The notes under the pieces are model-generated. The model was not told the origin of the DNA and searched no databases. It saw only the letters and a program-made list of their open reading frames with translations. 19,701 nucleotides of DNA, taken from the NCBI GenBank assembly GCA_029557025.1, contig JAKPRU010001154.1:1-19701 (forward strand). Direction: 5' to 3'. This DNA comes from Candidatus Omnitrophota bacterium (lineage in GTDB: Bacteria; Hinthialibacterota; Hinthialibacteria; Hinthialibacterales; JAKPRU01). This document shows, piece by piece, positions 3,859 to 17,829 of this stretch (positions are counted from its first letter, which is position 1; each line of letters opens with the position of its first letter). Position numbers and translations under genes: made by a program.

Positions 3859-3938
3859 AGTATGAATAGGATAGAATAAACGAATGGAAGGTGGGTCATT
3901 TTTCCGGTCAAAACGCCGCTGTGAAAGGATGGCAACCG

Positions 3939-4505
3939 ATGAGACCCAGAGGATTCACCCTGATTGAGCTTCTGATTGTTGTTGCCATCATCGGCATTCT
4001 CGCCGCCATCGCTGTACCCAATTTCATCAATGCCCGTTTGAAAGCCACGATTGCCAGGGTTTATTCCGAGGAGAAGGCAATCAATGACGCCTATACAATG
4101 TACAACCTCGATAACAGCAGCTGGCCTCCGCATCTCGATGGAGACCCGGCGCAGCATCGGTTTGTGACCACGCCGGTTGCTTACTTGTCAACCTCATTAA
4201 AAGATCCGTTTCAGCAAGAGGGAATCACCGCCTCGGAAACGATCGGTTGGTATCAGGGGCAGTATCATGAGGAACCGGGCTACCAGATGCGGGCGGAGTT
4301 TTATGGAACCGGTGACCCGGCTGCCAAGGCCTATGCGGACACGAACAAAAATGCCGCTTTCTTCTGCCGTTCGGTCGGGCCGGATATGGATCGGGTTTCA
4401 GAACGGTCGATTCCTTATGACATTACCAACGGACTCAGCAGCCAGGGAACCATTTGCACTCCCATGCCCGGTTCATGGACAAACAAATATCCATACGAGC
4501 GGTGA
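3939..4505 (+). CDS. Prepilin-like protein with N-terminal methylation motif (type II secretion G / type IV pilin-like)
   Basis: A 188-residue class III signal protein. The N-terminus MRPRG/FTLIELLIVVAIIG carries the prepilin peptidase site after Gly5, Phe at mature position +1 and Glu at +5, followed by the hydrophobic assembly helix (AAIAVPNFINARLKA). The rest is a globular domain with TTPVAYLSTSLKDPF, a motif seen in many solitary pseudopilins of PVC-like and related uncultured phyla. Such proteins are processed by PilD and held in the inner membrane or a pseudopilus. No pil or gsp assembly genes are nearby, so its role is open. ATG 3939 has AAAGGA about 9 nt upstream and puts the leader at the normal length; an ATG at 3891 would add 16 unlikely residues. 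It is followed by an inverted-repeat element. Confidence 0.85.
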   Translation: MRPRGFTLIELLIVVAIIGILAAIAVPNFINARLKATIARVYSEEKAINDAYTMYNLDNSSWPPHLDGDPAQHRFVTTPVAYLSTSLKDPFQQEGITASETIGWYQGQYHEEPGYQMRAEFYGTGDPAAKAYADTNKNAAFFCRSVGPDMDRVSERSIPYDITNGLSSQGTICTPMPGSWTNKYPYER

Positions 4506-9072: not shown

Positions 9073-9226
9073 GTCCCTCTCGTTGAAACGGTCTTTTGGG
9101 GCGGACCGGCAGGCCGGACCACCTTGTCAAGTTTCTCCTTCGGCCATAGATTGCCTCGAATCCTGCGATCACGGGTGTATATCGAGTCGGTCCGTGTTGT
9201 TGATCCAATCAGGTGCATTCATTTTT

Positions 9227-9254
9227 AATATATCGCAATTTTCGTGCTTGTCAA
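9227..9254 (-). promoter_or_regulatory. Sigma70-type promoter for the minus-strand membrane protein
   Basis: Reading the minus strand, TTGACA (9254-9249) is followed after 16 bp by TATATT (9232-9227), a perfect -35 and a 5/6 -10. Transcription would start near 9220, giving a leader of about 150 nt before the start at 9072. The surrounding 305-bp gap (9073-9377) is AT-rich and holds no gene I can support. It should also contain the plus-strand promoter of the Tat-signal pseudogene, but no plus-strand candidate is convincing. Confidence 0.55.
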
Positions 9255-9377
9255 GGCGGAGGTTTACATAATATCACCGTTGAACCAAATTTAACGAAGA
9301 CCGTGAGACGCATTCTGCAACGGATGGCCTATATATATGGTCCTTATTATTCCACAAATGGAAGGAGCGAACAGCCG

Positions 9378-10180
9378 ATGTTTCCCCGGAGAAGGTTTCT
9401 GAAACAGGCAGGCCTTACCGCCGGGTGTGCCTTAACACTGCAGAATTCCTCCATGGCCCGCGTGGAACAGCCTGCAAGAATGATCGAACCGTTCCTGGAA
9501 GAATACGGATTCGGGGATTACACCGCTCCCGTGGCGGGAGGCATGGAGCGATTCGGCCTCGATAACTACCGTCTGTTGCTCGATGACATGCTCAACGCGC
9601 GGATGAATTCGCTTCTGGTCTGCATCAAGTGGCTCACCACCGGCTATTACTCCAAACTCTCCTTTCAAGACCAGTCCCCGGTAATCCGGTGATTGAGTCC
9701 CAAAATGGACTGATTCGCCAGGTGATCCGAGAGGCGCATCAGCGGGGGATCAAGATTCGATTTAATTTGTGCCTCACGTATTTCGATGCGGAAGTCTTCG
9801 GCGGAACGCCCTACCAGACCTTTGATAACAGCAGCGGTGTCCCTTTCCCACGCCCAATCGGAGTCTATGACACGGATGCTCCCGGCCTGATCGAACGGGC
9901 CTGCCAGGTCTGCGAAGAGGTACTGGAGGAATTCCCCGGAGTGGATGGATATATCATCGAACTGGAGGGTACAGGTGTGGAAGTGCCTTATCGAATCGAC
10001 TTATACAACCAATGGGCGAAAGAGCACGGAAAGCGTCCCTTCCAGGAAGTCGGTCATCCCCTGAATCCACGCGGGATGGATGCTCCCGAATGGCGGGAAT
10101 ATACGACGTTTTCTCGGTTCAAAGTCTTGCGGGTGATTGAGGAAACTATACGTAAAAAGAGCTTTAACGGCGACCTCTTG
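9378..10180 (+). pseudogene. Decayed Tat-exported TIM-barrel-like protein (frameshifted and 3'-truncated)
   Basis: The ATG at 9378 (AAGGAG 12 nt upstream) begins a twin-arginine signal peptide, MFPRRRFLKQAGLTAGCALT. The protein continues with glycoside-hydrolase-like (beta/alpha) text: LLLDDMLNARMNSLLVCIKW, then a stop at 9690-9692. Coding continues in another frame (NGLIRQVIREAHQRGIKIRF, DGYIIELEGTGVEVPYRIDL). Adding one C to the C-run at 9676-9679 rejoins both parts as SFQDQSPGNPVIESQNG, so this is a one-base deletion or a sequencing error. The family-like sequence ends around RKKSFNGDLL (about 10180), where the frame runs antisense into the convergent prepilin-like gene. The 3' half of the barrel is therefore missing. 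A substrate cannot be named. The first frame alone would give a 104-residue fragment. Confidence 0.7.
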
Positions 10181-10676
10181 AAATGGTGTAATAGCCCACA
10201 TACGAGGCATGGGCCAGGCTCCAGTCCAGTGCCGGACCCGGGCTGCGGACCGTGTACTTATAGGCATTTCCGTAAACATACAACGTATGCCCGGATCGGC
10301 TGTCGTCATCGTAGACATAACCTCCGTCCCAGATCTTGTCCAAACTCGGCTTGATATTCTGAGGATTTGCGGTTTGAAACGGATCGATGGGGATGGACGT
10401 GACATAGGCGACCGGAGTAGTCAACACATGATACCGATAGGTATGTTTTTCCCACCACTTGGTACCTGTCCAAAACGCGCTGCCGGGATAGACATTGTTA
10501 TCCAGCCGGTACATTTCCAGGGCGCTTGACAGCGATTTCAGGTCGCCATACACGCGGCTCAGTTTAGCCTTGGTTTGTGCGTTGATGAAATTGGGAACGG
10601 CGATGGCCGCCAGGATTCCGATAATCGCCACCACGATGAGCAACTCGATCAGGATGAACCCGAATCGCTTTTCCAT
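10164..10676 (-). CDS. Second prepilin-like protein, possibly shortened at its C-terminus
   Basis: A 170-residue prepilin: MEKRFG/FILIELLIVVAIIG, with the peptidase site after Gly6, Phe +1 and Glu +5, then the helix AAIAVPNFINAQTKAKLSRV. Ile replaces the usual Thr at +2. The middle shares LTTPVAYVTSIPIDPFQ with the prepilin at 3939, so the two are paralogues. The C-terminus (SPGPALDWSLAHASYVGYYT, then ISRGRR) ends about where the paralogue carries a further 20-25 residues. It stops inside the junction with the decayed Tat gene, so it may be truncated. ATG 10676 has AGGAAA about 9 nt upstream; a GTG one codon earlier is also possible. No pilus assembly genes are nearby. Confidence 0.82.
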   Translation of the reverse strand: MEKRFGFILIELLIVVAIIGILAAIAVPNFINAQTKAKLSRVYGDLKSLSSALEMYRLDNNVYPGSAFWTGTKWWEKHTYRYHVLTTPVAYVTSIPIDPFQTANPQNIKPSLDKIWDGGYVYDDDSRSGHTLYVYGNAYKYTVRSPGPALDWSLAHASYVGYYTISRGRR

Positions 10677-10720
10677 CACGCAAGTTTCCTGTTCGGAGCG
10701 TTGTGAATTCAGACCGCCTT

Positions 10721-11377: not shown

Positions 11378-11998
11378 ATGTTTCAACAAGGTATTCAGCG
11401 GCGGATTAAATACCAGGCAGAGCTGGACGGCAATTTTGCGAAGGAGATTGCATCGACGCCGGGTTGCGATAATCTCTTCAGTTGCATCCAATGCGGGAAA
11501 TGCAGTGGAACGTGTCCCCTGAGCATTTACATGGATTATACGCCCCGCCGTGTGATTGCCATGACACGCGCCGGATTTAAGGAGGAAGTTCTTCAAAGTC
11601 AGACGATCTGGCTATGTGCGTCCTGCTACTCCTGCACGGCGGAGTGTCCCAAGGAAATCAAGATCACCGATGTGATGTATGCGCTGAAACAGCGTGCCAT
11701 CCGGGACAAGGTATACCCCAAGCGGTTTCCGACTCCGATCTTGGCGCGGGAGTTTTTCAGTTCTATCTGGAAATACGGTCGAAATACGGAGAGTTGGCTG
11801 ATCGTGCGGATGTATCTGAAGAGCAATCCGTTCAAGATGATCGCACAGAGCCTGTTGGGGTTCAACCTGTGGCGAACAGGTCGAATGGGTCTCAAACCCG
11901 AATCCATCAAAGATCGCACCGGTCTTCAACGTCTCCTTGAGGCCGTGGAACAAGCAGAACCAAAAGAAAGCCGTACACCGGCGGGTAAGAGGGAGTGA
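11378..11998 (+). CDS. hdrC: Heterodisulfide reductase-like subunit C
   Basis: A 206-residue iron-sulfur protein, first gene of the six-gene operon. It has two ferredoxin-type CX2CX2CX3C motifs, CIQCGKCSGTCP (Cys 36, 39, 42, 46) and CASCYSCTAECP (Cys 80, 83, 86, 90), each binding a [4Fe-4S] cluster. HdrC is the wire between the flavin subunit HdrA and the catalytic subunit HdrB. The region after residue 100 is helical, and the last about 25 residues are charged and probably disordered. ATG 11378 has AGGAGA 7 nt upstream. Archaeal HdrC proteins are similar or slightly shorter. It has no membrane segment, which fits the soluble HdrABC complex rather than membrane-bound HdrDE. Confidence 0.92.
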   Translation: MFQQGIQRRIKYQAELDGNFAKEIASTPGCDNLFSCIQCGKCSGTCPLSIYMDYTPRRVIAMTRAGFKEEVLQSQTIWLCASCYSCTAECPKEIKITDVMYALKQRAIRDKVYPKRFPTPILAREFFSSIWKYGRNTESWLIVRMYLKSNPFKMIAQSLLGFNLWRTGRMGLKPESIKDRTGLQRLLEAVEQAEPKESRTPAGKRE

Positions 11999-12003
11999 GT
12001 CCC

Positions 12004-12876
12004 ATGGTATACCTTTACTATCCCGGATGTTCATTAAAAGGAACCGGCAGAGCGTACGAAGAGTCTCTCCTGGCAGTTTTTAAGGCTTTGGACGAGCCGC
12101 TCCAGGAGCTGGACGACTGGAATTGCTGCGGCGCGACCGCCTATATGGCGGTCGATGAAATGAAGGCCTTCGCTCTGGCTGCGCGGAATCTGGCGTTGGC
12201 CGAAGCCCAAATGTCCGATGGCAACGTGACGATGGTCGTACCCTGCAACGCCTGCTACCTGGTTCTAATGAAAACGCAGCAGTACATGCAGGAGTATGCC
12301 GAAGTCGGCAAGAAACTCCGCGGCGTTCTGGAGAAAGCCGGGCTGCACTACGAAGGGAAAGTGGTTATTCGGCATCCCCTGGACGTGTTGGTGAACGATA
12401 TCGGCCTGGAACACATCTCGAAACATATAAAGCGTTCGCTGGGCGATCTTCCGGTTGCCGCCTATTACGGATGCCAGATGGTGAGACCGTATTGCACATT
12501 CGATGACCAGCATAATCCCATGTCCATGGACAAGCTGGTCAAGGCGCTTGGGGCCGTGCCGGTGGATTGGCCGCTGAAAACACGGTGTTGCGGTGGGGCA
12601 TTGACCGGAACCATTGAAGAAGTGGGAGTTCGATTGAATTACATTCTTCTCAGGGAAGCGCAGAAGCGTGGCGCCCAAGTCATGGCAACGGCCTGCCCGC
12701 TCTGCCAATTCAATTTGGAATGTTATCAGGGTTCCATGAACCGTCAGTACGAGGAGAAAATTCACGTGACACCCGTCTATTTCAGCCAGTTGATGGGTAT
12801 CGCGTTCGGATTGAGCCGGCATACATTGGGGTTGCATCGTTCCCTTGTGGCGATGCCCCAGCAACTCGCCATATAA
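12004..12876 (+). CDS. hdrB: Heterodisulfide reductase-like subunit B (two CCG domains)
   Basis: A 290-residue catalytic subunit. Both CCG domains are complete: Cys9-X31-Cys41-Cys42-X38-Cys81-X2-Cys84, and Cys157-X37-Cys195-Cys196-X34-Cys231-X2-Cys234. In methanogen HdrB these ligate two non-cubane [4Fe-4S] clusters that split the CoM-S-S-CoB disulfide. Having both sets intact predicts an active site for a disulfide-like acceptor; a bacterium without CoM and CoB would need another one. ATG 12004 has GGGAG about 9 nt upstream. A GTG at 11995 overlapping the hdrC stop is an alternative. The final 25 residues beyond VYFSQLMGIAFGL are typical for the family. Confidence 0.92.
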   Translation: MVYLYYPGCSLKGTGRAYEESLLAVFKALDEPLQELDDWNCCGATAYMAVDEMKAFALAARNLALAEAQMSDGNVTMVVPCNACYLVLMKTQQYMQEYAEVGKKLRGVLEKAGLHYEGKVVIRHPLDVLVNDIGLEHISKHIKRSLGDLPVAAYYGCQMVRPYCTFDDQHNPMSMDKLVKALGAVPVDWPLKTRCCGGALTGTIEEVGVRLNYILLREAQKRGAQVMATACPLCQFNLECYQGSMNRQYEEKIHVTPVYFSQLMGIAFGLSRHTLGLHRSLVAMPQQLAI

Positions 12877-12882
12877 AGGAGG
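12875..12882 (+). promoter_or_regulatory. Shine-Dalgarno that fixes the hdrA GTG start
   Basis: AAAGGAGG overlaps the hdrB stop codon and lies 10 nt before GTG 12893. It favours this GTG over the upstream start at 12845, which would lie inside hdrB. Confidence 0.75.
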
Positions 12883-12892
12883 TTCCATTTCC

Positions 12893-14887
12893 GTGACTGC
12901 AATCCAAGGTAACGGATCCATTCGAATCGGGGTATTCATCTGCCATTGCGGAATCAACATTGCGGCGAAAGTGAACATCTCCGAAGTGGTGGAATTTGCC
13001 AAGACACTACCGCATGTGGCCTGCGCAACAGATTATCAATTCCTCTGCTCCGATCCGGGCCAGGAATTGATTAAGACGCACATACGGGAAAACAACCTGA
13101 ACCGGATCGTCGTCGCTTCCTGTTCTCCGCTGATGCACGAAGTCACATTTCGTCGTGCGGCCGGCGAAGCCGGGCTGAATCCTTTTTATGTTCAGATGGC
13201 GAACATCCGGGAGCAGGTGAGTTGGGTTACAAAGGACATGAAGTCGAGTACGACGAAGGCGAAGGCGCTGGTCGCGGCGGCTGTCAGGCGGGTGGCCAGG
13301 CATGATGCGCTCGAAGTGCGCCAGGTTCCCGTGAAGGCGGATGTTCTGGTAGTCGGTGGCGGTATCGCGGGTATTCAGGCTGCGCTTACCATCGCCAACT
13401 CCGATAAGAAAGTCTACCTGGTGGAACGGGAGCCGACCATCGGCGGGCACATGGCCCAGTTTGACAAGACCTTTCCCACGCTGGACTGCGCCGCCTGTAT
13501 TCTCACTCCCAAAATGTCCAGTGTTGCCGTTCACCCCAATATCACTCTTCTCACCTTTTCTGAAGTCGTCAGCGTGGAAGGCTACACGGGGAATTTCCGG
13601 GTCCGAATCAAGCGGAAGCCCCGCTATGTGATTGAAGATAAATGTGTCGGCTGCAATGCGTGCGTAGATGCCTGTATCTATAAACAGCCCCGGTTTCCGG
13701 ATGAGTTCAACGTGGGTCTCAGCAAACGAAAGCCGGTTTACATGCCGTTCCCGCAGGCCACTCCCTCTGTGGTTCTGATTGATCCGGAGTCGTGCATTCA
13801 GCTCAAAAAGGGAACTTGCAAGATGCCCTGTGTGGATGCGTGCGACCGGAATGCCATCGACTTCAATCAGAAAGAAGAGTTCCTGGATGTCGACGTGGGG
13901 GCGATCATTCTGGCCACGGGATATCAGCCGTTCAATCCTTCACGGATTCCGGAATATGGTTACGGAAAGTACCCGAACGTCTATACCGGACTGGAAGTGG
14001 AACGGCTGGTGAATGCGGCAGGGCCGACCCAGGGCCAGATTGTGCTGAAAGACGGCACAAAACCGAAATCGGTGGGGATCATCCATTGTGTCGGTTCGCG
14101 CGATCAGAAAACGAATCCTTACTGTTCCCGTGTGTGCTGCATGTACTCGCTTAAGTTGGCCCACCTGATTAAGGAGCGGACCGAAGCGGAAGTGTTCAAT
14201 TTTTATATCGACATGCGCGCTGCCGGAAAAGGCTACGAAGAGTTTTATGACAAGGTAATGAGCGAGCAGGTGCAGGTTGTACGGGGACGGGTTGCCGAGG
14301 TGACGGATTGGGCGATGACACCCGAAGAGGAAGGGAAGCTGGTTTTGCGAGTGGAGGATACCCTGGTGGGTGTTGCCCGCCGGATTCCCGTGGATATGGT
14401 CGTTCTTTCCGTGGGTCTGGAACCGCAGCCGGATGTGGAACAGGTCCAACGGTTGTTCAATATCAGTTGCAGCAAAGGCGGGTGGCTTCTGGAACGCCAC
14501 CCGAAGTTGGCGCCGGTGTCAACGTTTACGGATGGGATATTCATCGCCGGGGCCTGCCAGGGACCGAAGGACATTCCCGATTGTGTGGCGCAAGCCGGAG
14601 CCGCTGCCGGGGAAGCCATGGCCCTGATTGACAAAGGCCATGTGGACCTGGAGCCGAATGCCGCGCATGTTCGCGAAAACTGTTCCGGCTGCCAGACCTG
14701 TATATCGGCCTGTCCGTTCCATGCGATTTCCCTGGACAAGGAGACCGGGCTTTCCGTGGTCAATGAAGCGCTGTGCAAGGGCTGTGGGACCTGCGTCGCT
14801 TCCTGTCCTTCGGGAGTCGCTCAACAGCAAATGTTTACCGACGAACAGATTTACGAAGAGATTGAGGGAATAATGAATTATGTCTGA
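12893..14887 (+). CDS. hdrA: Heterodisulfide reductase-like subunit A, electron-bifurcating flavoprotein
   Basis: A 664-residue FAD and iron-sulfur protein, the expected site of electron bifurcation. In order: N-terminal GVFICHCGINIAAKVN (13-28); Rossmann FAD motif VLVVGGGIAGIQAAL (151-165); the HdrA hallmark GGHMAQFDKTFPTLDCAAC (184-202); an inserted ferredoxin motif CVGCNACVDAC (251-261) with a further Cys set at 301, 309, 313 and 317; the second half of the thioredoxin-reductase-like core (SVGLEPQPDVEQV); and two C-terminal [4Fe-4S] motifs CSGCQTCISAC (597-607) and CKGCGTCVASC (628-638). By homology it splits electron pairs from the hydrogenase (via MvhD) between ferredoxin and HdrB. The GTG start has a strong Shine-Dalgarno. 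The 3' end overlaps mvhD by 8 bp. Length and motifs match methanogen-type HdrA without a fused extra domain. Confidence 0.95.
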   Translation: MTAIQGNGSIRIGVFICHCGINIAAKVNISEVVEFAKTLPHVACATDYQFLCSDPGQELIKTHIRENNLNRIVVASCSPLMHEVTFRRAAGEAGLNPFYVQMANIREQVSWVTKDMKSSTTKAKALVAAAVRRVARHDALEVRQVPVKADVLVVGGGIAGIQAALTIANSDKKVYLVEREPTIGGHMAQFDKTFPTLDCAACILTPKMSSVAVHPNITLLTFSEVVSVEGYTGNFRVRIKRKPRYVIEDKCVGCNACVDACIYKQPRFPDEFNVGLSKRKPVYMPFPQATPSVVLIDPESCIQLKKGTCKMPCVDACDRNAIDFNQKEEFLDVDVGAIILATGYQPFNPSRIPEYGYGKYPNVYTGLEVERLVNAAGPTQGQIVLKDGTKPKSVGIIHCVGSRDQKTNPYCSRVCCMYSLKLAHLIKERTEAEVFNFYIDMRAAGKGYEEFYDKVMSEQVQVVRGRVAEVTDWAMTPEEEGKLVLRVEDTLVGVARRIPVDMVVLSVGLEPQPDVEQVQRLFNISCSKGGWLLERHPKLAPVSTFTDGIFIAGACQGPKDIPDCVAQAGAAAGEAMALIDKGHVDLEPNAAHVRENCSGCQTCISACPFHAISLDKETGLSVVNEALCKGCGTCVASCPSGVAQQQMFTDEQIYEEIEGIMNYV

Positions 14888-15389
14888 GGTCTCCAAATCA
14901 TCAAGCGGTAATGGATTCGAACCGAGAATTGTCGGCTTTTTCTGCAACTGGTGTACATATACCGCTGCGGACCTGGCCGGCACCTCTCGCCTGACTTACG
15001 CACCGAATGTCCGGGTGTTGCGCGTCATGTGCTCTGGAAGGCTTGATCCCCAGTTTATTTTGGATGCGTTTCGAAAGGGGGCCGATGGGGTTCTCATCGG
15101 AGGTTGCCATCCCGGAGACTGCCATTACCAGGCGGGCAACTACAAAGCATTACGTCGGTACACGTTGCTGAAACGCCTGCTCAAGACAATGGGAATTGAG
15201 GAAGAGCGTGTTCGGCTGGAGTGGATCTCAGCATCCGAGGGCGACAAGGTTCAGCGAGTCATTAACGAGATGACAGAGGATATTCGACGGCTCGGCCCGT
15301 TGCGCCTTCCCCCCATCCCTCACGCGGGTCGGATGCCGGGCGAGGCCGTGGAAAGGGTTTCTTCAATCGGACAGGAGACAGGATTATGA
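14880..15389 (+). CDS. mvhD: F420-non-reducing hydrogenase delta subunit (MvhD-like)
   Basis: A 169-residue protein that links the [NiFe] hydrogenase to HdrA by a [2Fe-2S] cluster. The family pattern is clear: IVGFFCNWCTYTAADLAG (17-34, Cys22 and Cys25), VRVLRVMCSGRLDP (44-57, Cys51), and GADGVLIGGCHPGDCHYQAG (67-86, Cys76 and Cys81), then ERVRLEWISASEG. All five conserved cysteines are present. ATG 14880 lies in the sequence ATGTCTGA, sharing 8 bp with the hdrA stop, so translation is probably coupled. The stop overlaps the mvhG start by 4 bp (ATGA). The tail beyond residue 145 is Pro-rich and poorly conserved. Confidence 0.94.
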   Translation: MSEVSKSSSGNGFEPRIVGFFCNWCTYTAADLAGTSRLTYAPNVRVLRVMCSGRLDPQFILDAFRKGADGVLIGGCHPGDCHYQAGNYKALRRYTLLKRLLKTMGIEEERVRLEWISASEGDKVQRVINEMTEDIRRLGPLRLPPIPHAGRMPGEAVERVSSIGQETGL

Positions 15390-16369
15390 GCAAACCCAAA
15401 ATCGGATTTTACTGGTGCGCTTCCTGCGGCGGTTGTGATGAGGCCGTGGTGGACTTGGCGGAAAACATACTTTCGGTTGTAGAAGCCGTCGATATTGCCG
15501 TATGGCCGGTCGCGATGGATTTCAAGCGTTCGGATGTGGAAAACATGCAGGATGGGGAGATGGTGGTGACCTTCATCAACGGCGCAATTCGCAATTCGGA
15601 AGACCGCGAAATTGTCGAGATTCTGCGTCATAAGTCGCAATATATCGTGGCGTTCGGCAGCTGCGCACATTTGGGGGGAGTACCCGGAATGGGCAATCTG
15701 TATACGCGAGAGTCCATTATCGAATGCAGTTACATCGAGACTCCCAGCGTTGTCAACCCGGAGAAGGTCTGTCCCCAAGGAGAGGTGACCGTCCCGGAAG
15801 GGGTGGTGACTCTTCCCGTGCTGGAGGAGCGGGTATGGACATTGGACCAGACAATCGAGGTGGATTATTACCTTCCCGGTTGTCCTCCTCCGGTGGCGTT
15901 GATTGTAGATGGGGTGACGGCGTTTCTCACGAATCAGTTGCCGCCGAAAGGCTCTGTTCTGGGACCGAAACACGCGTTGTGCCTGGATTGCCCCAGAAAA
16001 GACACGAAACCGGAGAATATGCTCATCAAGGAATTCAAGAGACCCCATGAAACGGAAATCGATCCGGAAACCTGCCTCTTGGCTCAAGGATTGCTCTGCC
16101 TGGGACCTGCGACGCGGAGCGGTTGTGGGGCGGCGTGCATTAACGGTAACATGCCCTGTACGGGCTGCCTGGGACCGACCGACTCAGTGAGAGATTACGG
16201 AGCAAAGGCCCTGTCGGGGATAGCCTCGCTGTTCGATGCGGAAACCGAGGCCGATATCGCCCGGATCGCCGATCGAATTGTAGACCCTGCCGGAACGTTT
16301 TACCGTTACAGCTTGCCCGGATCACTTTTCCAGGGAAAGGTATTCCAGAAAGAGGGAGCACGATCATGA
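15386..16369 (+). CDS. mvhG: F420-non-reducing [NiFe] hydrogenase small subunit (group 3c, MvhG-like)
   Basis: A 327-residue small subunit that carries electrons from the NiFe site through three iron-sulfur clusters. Proximal cluster ligands are visible in WCASCGGC (Cys11, 14, 17), GSCAHLGG (Cys93) and YLPGCPPP (Cys166). Further cysteines in CLDCPRK (199, 202), ETC (230), LLCLG (238), GCGAACING (247, 251) and CTGC (258, 261) supply the medial and distal clusters. There is no Tat signal, in keeping with a cytoplasmic group 3 enzyme and unlike group 1 uptake hydrogenases. ATG 15386 has AGGAGA 9 nt upstream and overlaps the mvhD stop; its own stop overlaps the mvhA start (ATGA). These junctions imply fixed co-expression of the three Mvh subunits. 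Confidence 0.94.
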   Translation: MSKPKIGFYWCASCGGCDEAVVDLAENILSVVEAVDIAVWPVAMDFKRSDVENMQDGEMVVTFINGAIRNSEDREIVEILRHKSQYIVAFGSCAHLGGVPGMGNLYTRESIIECSYIETPSVVNPEKVCPQGEVTVPEGVVTLPVLEERVWTLDQTIEVDYYLPGCPPPVALIVDGVTAFLTNQLPPKGSVLGPKHALCLDCPRKDTKPENMLIKEFKRPHETEIDPETCLLAQGLLCLGPATRSGCGAACINGNMPCTGCLGPTDSVRDYGAKALSGIASLFDAETEADIARIADRIVDPAGTFYRYSLPGSLFQGKVFQKEGARS

Positions 16370-17829
16370 CTCGGCATATTACCGTCAAGCCTATCACCCG
16401 GCTCGAAGGGCATGGAGTGATTGATATTATTCTCAACGATGCAGGGAATGTGGATCATGCCTATTTCCAGGTTCCCGAGCTGCGCGGTTTTGAAAAATTC
16501 GCCCAGGGGCGACCGGCGGAGGATATGCCGCAGATTACCTCCCGCATTTGTGGGGTCTGTCCCATGGCGCACCATATAGCCGCTACCAAGACACTCGACA
16601 ACCTGTATCGTGTAGACCCGCCTCCGGCAGCCAAGAAGATTCGGGAACTGGTTTACAACACGTTTGTTTTTGAGGATCACACGCTGCATTTCTATTTCCT
16701 TGGGGGGCCTGATTTTCTGGTCGGTCCTGCGGCTCCGAAATCGGACCGGAACATTCTTGGTGTTCTGGGCAAGTTCGGATTGGAGATCGGTAAGAAAGTG
16801 ATCGGGATGCGGAAAGAAATGCGCGACCTGATCAGCCTGATGGCCGGAAAGGTGATTCACCCTGTCTTTGGATTGCCCGGCGGAATTTCGAAACCGATGC
16901 GCCCGGAAGATCAGGCCCGGTTTGCGGCCGCGGCAGACAGGGGAATCGAATTCGCGCTGATGACTCTGGATGTTTTTCATAAAGTAGTGCTTGAAAATCC
17001 GGAGTATGTTGAGCTGATTACCTCTGATGCCTACACCCATAAAACCCATTATATGGGCCTGGTAGACAACAACAATCATCTTAATCTCTACGATGGACAA
17101 GTACGGGTCGTTGCGCCGGATGGGAAAGAAAAGGTGAAGTTCCCCATCGCCGAGTATCTGCAACATATCGGCGAACATGTGGAACCGTGTAGTTATATCA
17201 AGTTCTGCTTCCTGAAAGATGTCGGCTGGAAGGGATTCACCGAAGGACCCGACAGTGGGGTTTTCAGTGTCGCTCCTCTGGCAAGACTGAACGCCTCGGA
17301 TCGAATGGCCACTCCGAAAGCGCAGGAAGCCCGCGAAGAATTCTACAAGACCCTCGGAGGAAAGCCGGTTCATCACACCCTGGCCAACCACTGGGCGCGT
17401 TTGATTGAAGTGCTGTATGCCGCCGAACGGATGAAAGAACTGGCGAACGACCCGGAGATTCTCAGCAAGGAAGTGCGTACCATTCCGAGGACCACTCCTC
17501 AGGAGGGAATCGGTGTGGTGGAAGCGCCGCGTGGGACTCTGATTCATCATTACCAGACCGATGAACACGGTGTTATTACGCACGCTAATCTCATTGTGGC
17601 TACGCAGAACAACTCAGCGCGGATTTCCATGTCGGTTGATAAGGCGGCGAAACAATGGATCAAAAACGGCCGGGTGGATGATGGGCTACTGAACCGTGTG
17701 GAGATGGCGTTTCGCGCGTATGATCCGTGCCACGGGTGTGGAACGCACGCGCTACCGGGGCAGATGAGCCTGAAGGTTCGCCTGTACGATGCGGAGCGAA
17801 ACTTGATTCGGGAGATTCAGCAGGGTTGA
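16366..17829 (+). CDS. mvhA: F420-non-reducing [NiFe] hydrogenase large subunit (group 3c, MvhA-like)
   Basis: A 487-residue catalytic subunit that binds the NiFe(CN)2CO centre. The N-terminal L1-type motif is RICGVCPMAHH (60-70, Cys62 and Cys65), preceded by ITRLEGHG. The C-terminal L2-type motif is DPCHGCGTH (Cys455, Cys458, His461). All four nickel-ligand cysteines are present, so activity is expected. In related enzymes a maturation protease cuts after the final His; here that would remove 26 residues. The substitution HGCGT in place of the more usual LSCAT of MvhA is minor. ATG 16366 has GGGAG about 9 nt upstream and a 4-bp overlap with mvhG. It is the last gene of the operon: a repeat region follows after about 50 bp. 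No hyp maturation gene or protease gene lies in the window, so these must be elsewhere. Confidence 0.95.
   Translation: MTRHITVKPITRLEGHGVIDIILNDAGNVDHAYFQVPELRGFEKFAQGRPAEDMPQITSRICGVCPMAHHIAATKTLDNLYRVDPPPAAKKIRELVYNTFVFEDHTLHFYFLGGPDFLVGPAAPKSDRNILGVLGKFGLEIGKKVIGMRKEMRDLISLMAGKVIHPVFGLPGGISKPMRPEDQARFAAAADRGIEFALMTLDVFHKVVLENPEYVELITSDAYTHKTHYMGLVDNNNHLNLYDGQVRVVAPDGKEKVKFPIAEYLQHIGEHVEPCSYIKFCFLKDVGWKGFTEGPDSGVFSVAPLARLNASDRMATPKAQEAREEFYKTLGGKPVHHTLANHWARLIEVLYAAERMKELANDPEILSKEVRTIPRTTPQEGIGVVEAPRGTLIHHYQTDEHGVITHANLIVATQNNSARISMSVDKAAKQWIKNGRVDDGLLNRVEMAFRAYDPCHGCGTHALPGQMSLKVRLYDAERNLIREIQQG

Follow-up and report, generated by a model that had tools for sequence, protein, structure and literature searches.

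The HdrABC-MvhAGD complex (group 3c; 5odc, 9sw2 and other structures) is best known from methanogenic archaea, where it belongs to the system of the coenzyme M-coenzyme B heterodisulfide (CoM-S-S-CoB). Here we describe a complete and well-conserved hdrCBA-mvhDGA operon at positions 11378-17829 of a stretch of 19,701 nt (the window; contig JAKPRU010001154.1 of assembly GCA_029557025.1) from a bacterium of a little-known phylum. The window takes up an entire contig (C1136) in an assembly of 4.69 Mb that is 90.85% complete and 5.89% contaminated. Mvh has been noted in non-methanogens before (PMC6085437). The Sumerlaeota have mvhADG and hdrABC without CoM synthesis or methanogenesis, and the role of the pair was left open there, with sulfur, sulfate or iron suggested (PMC8092238). 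The pair is also found in 34 WOR-3 metagenome-assembled genomes, where it was likened to that of the Sumerlaeota (PMC12542636). Since the gene pair is already in print for these two phyla, the window operon adds to a known set of bacterial Hdr-Mvh operons, which are common and not unusual. Alternative disulfides such as DsrC have been proposed for Hdr (PMC5296606).

Two other described systems share parts of the complex. The HdrCBA-MvhD-MetVF complex of Moorella and Sporomusa is likewise bacterial and has homologues of HdrCBA and MvhD, but MetVF replaces the hydrogenase subunits and its HdrA is larger (101 and 162.8 kDa; PMC9430772). EtfD is a CCG-domain protein homologous to HdrBC that serves as a quinone wire (PMC13083937). 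Some of its cluster ligands have been replaced (Thr539, His583), its linear and His-capped clusters are non-catalytic, and it has a membrane domain; the window HdrB has neither such clusters nor such a domain. The evidence set out below makes it fairly likely that the operon encodes a soluble, bifurcating HdrABC-MvhAGD complex in which HdrB cleaves a disulfide other than CoM-S-S-CoB or DsrC.

The operon and its cofactor ligands

There are six intact open reading frames (ORFs) in the order hdrC-hdrB-hdrA-mvhD-mvhG-mvhA:

hdrC, 11378..11998, + strand: 206 aa; relay subunit with two [4Fe-4S] clusters and a C-terminal extension (TIGR03290, Fer4_8; 8 Cys in common with 8rvu_c, every Cys of which is matched)
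hdrB, 11995..12876, + strand: 293 aa with GTG 11995 as the start, 290 aa with ATG 12004; two CCG domains with a double noncubane cluster, where the high-potential acceptor is predicted to react
hdrA, 12893..14887, + strand: about 664 aa from GTG 12893; putative FAD bifurcating subunit (matches NF040770 and 5odc_A)
mvhD, 14880..15389, + strand: 169 aa; [2Fe-2S] linker (FlpD, E 1.6e-56; 5 Cys in common with 8rvu_F, 1 Cys of which is not matched)
mvhG, 15386..16369, + strand: 327 aa; hydrogenase small subunit (NF045875; 12 Cys in common with 5odc_E, 2 Cys of which are not matched)
mvhA, 16366..17829, + strand: 487 aa; [NiFe] large subunit (NF041785; RICGVCP and DPCHGCGTH motifs; position in the MvhA tree)

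The families matched are HdrC, HdrB with two CCG domains, HdrA of the HdrA2 type, MvhD/FlpD, VhuG and VhuA. None of the six subunits reaches the cut-off of its methanogen NCBIfam model: HdrA scores 825 bits with NF040770 (cut-off 1100), HdrB 166.6 with the methanogen HdrB model (345), HdrC 83.4 with TIGR03290 (160), MvhA 396 with NF041785 (VhuA; 800), MvhG 201 with NF045875 (VhuG; 450) and MvhD 138 with the VhuD model (215). The closest solved chains of five of the six subunits are nevertheless from Hdr/Mvh complexes of the CoB-CoM type, and the match of HdrA to 5odc_A (51% identity, E 2e-207) rules out chance.

HdrA has 27 Cys in common with 5odc_A, 4 Cys of which are not matched, and MvhA has the CxxC motifs RICGVCP (C62, C65) and DPCHGCGTH (C455, C458), the latter followed by a tail of 26 aa. 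A first-pass annotation, made from the sequence alone, had reported six intact and overlapping genes with both CCG domains of HdrB, the HdrA cluster motifs and the four nickel-ligand Cys of MvhA. All of this stands except that the genes most likely do not all overlap. The hdrA ORF is open from TTG 12845, but there is an alternative start at GTG 12893, 3' of the ribosome site AAAGGAGG, and this is the most likely start of the gene; there is then no overlap between hdrA and hdrB. The remaining junctions overlap by 4 to 8 nt when the first start codons are taken, although hdrB may start at ATG 12004, past the hdrC stop, instead of GTG 11995.

A simple hydrophobicity count finds no transmembrane segment in HdrB, HdrC, MvhD, MvhG or MvhA and a single hydrophobic segment in HdrA, at the start of the FAD-binding fold (residue 151). 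Two residues of HdrA, K409 and E356, are proposed marks of bifurcation (PMC12054007). Their counterparts in the window are K423 and E372 (numbered on a 666-aa product read from window base 12887), and both are kept in 55 of 55 HdrA relatives (those with at least 55% identity that align over 600 residues or more, so that short or cut contigs are lost). Taken together, the data suggest that the six genes almost certainly encode an HdrABC-MvhAGD complex of the bifurcating type, and we infer that this complex quite probably performs ferredoxin-reducing bifurcation.

The six subunits, the cofactor ligands, K409/E356 and the double noncubane HdrB are common to this complex and the one of methanogens. 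The two differ in the host, which is bacterial and in which no ComA was found, in the residues beside the HdrB clusters, which are switched, and in HdrA. The second ferredoxin-like cluster of the window HdrA (C303-C319) is spaced CX7CX3CX3C, and its second Cys is kept in 53 of the 55 relatives. There is also an additional Cys in the product of hdrA (window 12893-14887), C528, which is kept in 54 of the 55 and which is Arg512 in 5odc.

The HdrB site and related loci

The ligands of the two noncubane clusters of HdrB are C12, C44, C45, C84 and C87 (C9, C41, C42, C78 and C81 of 5odc_B) together with C160, C198, C199, C234 and C237 (C153, C193, C194, C231 and C234 of 5odc_B). All ten are kept in 51 of 51 rows (the window and 50 others that align over 230 residues or more, a filter that removes short or cut contigs) and in the four chains, two of them closely alike, that form the methanogen side of the comparison. 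HdrB thus keeps both bridging Cys at the catalytic irons (Cys81 and Cys234 as named in PMC13083937). The residue before the counterpart of Cys81 is Ala86, and EtfD has His there.

Beside these clusters, DWNCCGAT, K93, Y157 and R164 are fixed in 46 of 46 close rows, and Q161 is found in 98% of them. The four methanogen chains have GASCCPAP, E87, H150, K157 and H154, respectively, at these positions. We counted a position as switched when the 46 rows conserve one residue there and the four chains uniformly have another. There are 20 such positions and 16 of them are near ligands: of the 64 positions that lie no more than five residues from a ligand, 16 are switched, in comparison with 4 of the 219 that are farther away. 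Among the positions that have a conserved residue in the rows and a single residue in the four chains, the two sides differ at 16 of the 24 close to ligands and at 4 of the 16 others. This concentration of switched residues around the ligands favours a disulfide other than CoM-S-S-CoB.

MvhA is matched by at least 8000 candidates at E ≤0.001. The loci fetched were the best 80 of at least 562, and the sample is therefore biased towards close relatives. HdrB is near mvhA in 40 of the 80, and 36 of those HdrB are at 45% identity or above (12 named phyla, with 4 rows that carry no phylum). No acceptor module is in view in 27 loci, and in 12 of these hdrA is not in view either.

In eight of the 80 loci (L019, L029, L032, L033, L038, L040, L061 and L078) the hydrogenase core is found with EtfBA and HdrD-like proteins instead of hdrC-hdrB. 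Seven of the eight have hdrA in view, and a ninth locus, L025, has both EtfBA/HdrD-like proteins and hdrB. Several of the noncubane ligands have been lost from the soluble HdrD-like proteins (8 rows, 390-455 aa). The long ones (10 rows, 612-706 aa) have 3-6 hydrophobic segments by the same simple count; several ligands have been lost in 8 of the 10 rows, and L017 and L078 keep counterparts of all ten. It is possible that the EtfBA/HdrD-like loci are an ETF- or quinone-linked variant of the core. Output modules therefore seem to have been swapped on one hydrogenase core, and the module in the window is of the catalytic type.

Host, MvhA tree and genome setting

Orthologues of HdrB are present in 10 of the 14 genomes of the class (G000-G009) and not in G010-G013. 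In one member of the same order (G003), MvhA contains residues 21 to the end of P0075, which is labelled Candidatus Hinthialibacter antarcticus. The order therefore includes this organism, and by the NCBI placement of its genus the phylum is very probably Ca. Hinthialibacterota. The source label of another member of the order (G005, P0101) is Omnitrophota, in disagreement with this. In G001, which is of the same genus as the window, matching neighbours (hisS 97%, galK 92%) lie on a contig of 114 kb, so that the operon is chromosomal and not binning noise. The synteny is bacterial and so are the near relatives, in agreement with the bacterial host proposed in the first-pass annotation, and they place the contig outside the methanogenic archaea.

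That annotation had also asked for a phylogeny of MvhA. Our tree has 47 rows chosen by hand from 98 rows and five PDB chains, and supersedes a first tree of 103 rows that gave long-branch warnings. The window MvhA falls with Mvh/Vhu, in a 38-row clade (100/100) that is bacterial except for five archaeal rows, none of them titled as a methanogen. This clade is separate from methanogen MvhA/VhuA and adjoins it in a joint group of 42 rows (100/98), with HoxH and HydL outside. The MvhA of the class do not form one clade: the genus is apart from the remaining members of the order, among rows of other phyla (14 rows, 99/98), and this scatter leaves room for transfer between phyla. The mvhADG-hdrABC loci of the Sumerlaeota and WOR-3 have the same gene pair in other phyla, and the Sumerlaeota relative L023 is in a different part of the tree from the window. 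There are three further [NiFe] hydrogenases in the genome, L136 (C967) with a TAT (twin-arginine translocation)-like small subunit and L137 (C71) and L138 (C1055), which group with HydL 7t2r in the tree.

ComA (PF02679), the sole marker of CoM synthesis tested, was not found in the genome, which is 90.85% complete; mcr and the other CoM/CoB genes were not searched. CoM synthesis in the same genome would, according to the first-pass annotation, have pointed to the ordinary methanogen system. ComA had no match in the control Methanosarcina acetivorans either, and is therefore an incomplete marker of CoM synthesis. DsrC was not found in the one genome searched, and we rejected it as the partner of HdrB for this reason. 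A search for hyp genes, also proposed in that annotation, found HypD.

POR, a family of ferredoxin-linked enzymes, is present in 14 of the 14 class members. RnfC is above the cut-off in none of the 14 class genomes, and Rnf was set aside as a ferredoxin outlet on these grounds; all 14 have matches below the cut-off. The better RnfC-like proteins, in four inspected loci, are 437-449 aa long, and two of the four (L148 and L149) have a microcompartment-shell-like protein next to them. These pairs may be PduS/PduT-like. Acetyl-CoA synthase (CdhC) was found in 0 of the 14 class genomes, the only matches being in archaeal controls, and an acetyl-CoA synthase setting was set aside as well.

There is a second Hdr locus in the genus (L095 on C1268 and L096 on C982), which is whole in L153. 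Its genes are metF, two glutamate-synthase-like genes, a GXGXG/GATase-like gene, hdrC, hdrB, an hdrA of 1508 aa, mvhD and one more gene. Part of this hdrA is presumably GltD-like and the last gene presumably metV-like. The metF of the genus is thus at a separate Hdr locus, and there is neither metV nor metF in the window operon.

The acceptor of HdrB, and other genes of the window

In the mechanism that we propose, MvhA/G would split H2 (or make it) and MvhD would hand electron pairs to the FAD of HdrA. From HdrA, one electron would go to ferredoxin and the other, by way of HdrC, to HdrB, whose two open noncubane [4Fe-4S] clusters would most probably split a thiol disulfide other than CoM-S-S-CoB or DsrC. 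On the sequence evidence, a high-potential acceptor of the disulfide type is somewhat favoured. Should the acceptor prove to be a disulfide, H2 would serve many uncultured bacteria to make ferredoxin of very low potential, at the expense of an oxidant that has not yet been named. We suggest tentatively that at least a dozen bacterial phyla may share one undescribed HdrB disulfide, either a small thiol pair or a thiol protein, as the bacterial counterpart of CoM-S-S-CoB. With the same reserve, the block of switched residues around unchanged clusters might be the mark of this shared disulfide, which would couple H2 oxidation to ferredoxin reduction. The question of the acceptor becomes testable through the switched residues and through the contrast with ETF-linked relatives that share the core.

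A number of observations weigh against a bifurcating complex with a new disulfide. The block of switched residues may in part be plain divergence. K409 and E356 are present in most archaeal HdrA (PMC12054007) and so discriminate weakly. The best solved match of MvhA in phmmer is, at odds with the tree, HydL 7t2r (397 bits), slightly ahead of 5odc_F (386.5 bits). The HycI-type protease (PF01750) was found in none of three genomes of the genus (G000, G001 and G002) by a search that can miss divergent forms, and is beside mvhA in five of six sister-family members of the order, the sixth (G008), whose contig is cut, having no match. There are four [NiFe] large-subunit loci in G000 despite the lack of a PF01750 match, and the window MvhA retains its tail after DPCHGCGTH. 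The control Synechococcus elongatus matches [NiFe] hydrogenase and HypD but not PF01750. No substrate-like gene recurs among the 25 most frequent neighbour families of 81 loci, and a substrate gene adjoining the operon was accordingly dropped as a candidate. The related HdrCBA-MvhD-MetVF complex of Sporomusa had no help from reduced glutathione or dihydrolipoate (PMC9430772), and no enzyme assay for the window clade was found in the literature. Several further points of this kind bear on a rival acceptor, namely the quinone pool or a different membrane carrier, for which HdrCB would act like SdhE or EtfD. SdhE is a quinol-linked protein of 8-methylmenaquinol:fumarate reductase (MFR). HdrB scores 154.7 bits with the SdhE model (cut-off 500), near its score with the HdrB model, and residues 75-194 of HdrC match MFR SdhB. 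The same core is paired with EtfBA and HdrD-like proteins in the eight loci described above, the long proteins having multiple hydrophobic segments. Additionally, the long HdrD-like protein of L078, which is beside EtfBA, keeps counterparts of all ten ligands and has His where EtfD has His583, so the ligand count alone leaves room for an ETF or quinone link in the window HdrB. In the other direction, the HdrD-like proteins in seven of the eight loci have, like EtfD, lost several ligands and the window HdrB keeps ten; HdrB and HdrC show no transmembrane segment in the hydrophobicity count, and no ETF gene lies close to the window operon. This suggests that a quinone-linked acceptor is unlikely.

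A different possibility is that the complex works in reverse (confurcation), making H2 in fermentation with electrons from reduced ferredoxin and a dithiol. The presence of ferredoxin-linked POR throughout the class is consistent with this, and the lack of RnfC above the cut-off, with weaker matches in all 14 genomes, may mean that another ferredoxin outlet is needed. The direction cannot be set from sequence, however, and the genome also encodes the L136 enzyme, whose TAT-like small subunit usually marks an H2-uptake hydrogenase; we regard reverse operation as rather doubtful. HdrB could also relay electrons to a docking enzyme, for example methylene-tetrahydrofolate reductase, and use no disulfide. 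The separate metF locus of the genus, with its own HdrCBA and MvhD, speaks for this, but metF sits with that other Hdr set and not with the window operon. The wide families among the 25 commonest neighbours (maturation genes, kinase-like genes, CCG/HdrD-like genes and EtfAB) are not beside the window operon either, and a relay of this type is distinctly improbable. Finally, the operon could be the ordinary CoM-S-S-CoB system of methanogens, present through the host or by recent transfer. Although CoB-CoM-type complexes supply the closest solved chains for five of the six subunits, the scores are below the methanogen cut-offs, no ComA was found and MvhA is in a separate clade. Synteny, kinship and the tree all speak against a methanogen host or recent transfer, and we give this explanation a negligible probability. 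The data are most consistent with a bifurcating complex and a disulfide other than CoM-S-S-CoB or DsrC.

In addition to the operon, there are two overlapping ORFs in different frames at window positions 9213-10354, the first with a TAT-like start. There is no Pfam match for either, and together they could represent one broken gene. The motif LIELLIVVAIIGILAAIAVPNFINA is found in two prepilin-like ORFs, at window positions 3891-4505 and 10164-10679, the second of which matches N_methyl and T2SSG.

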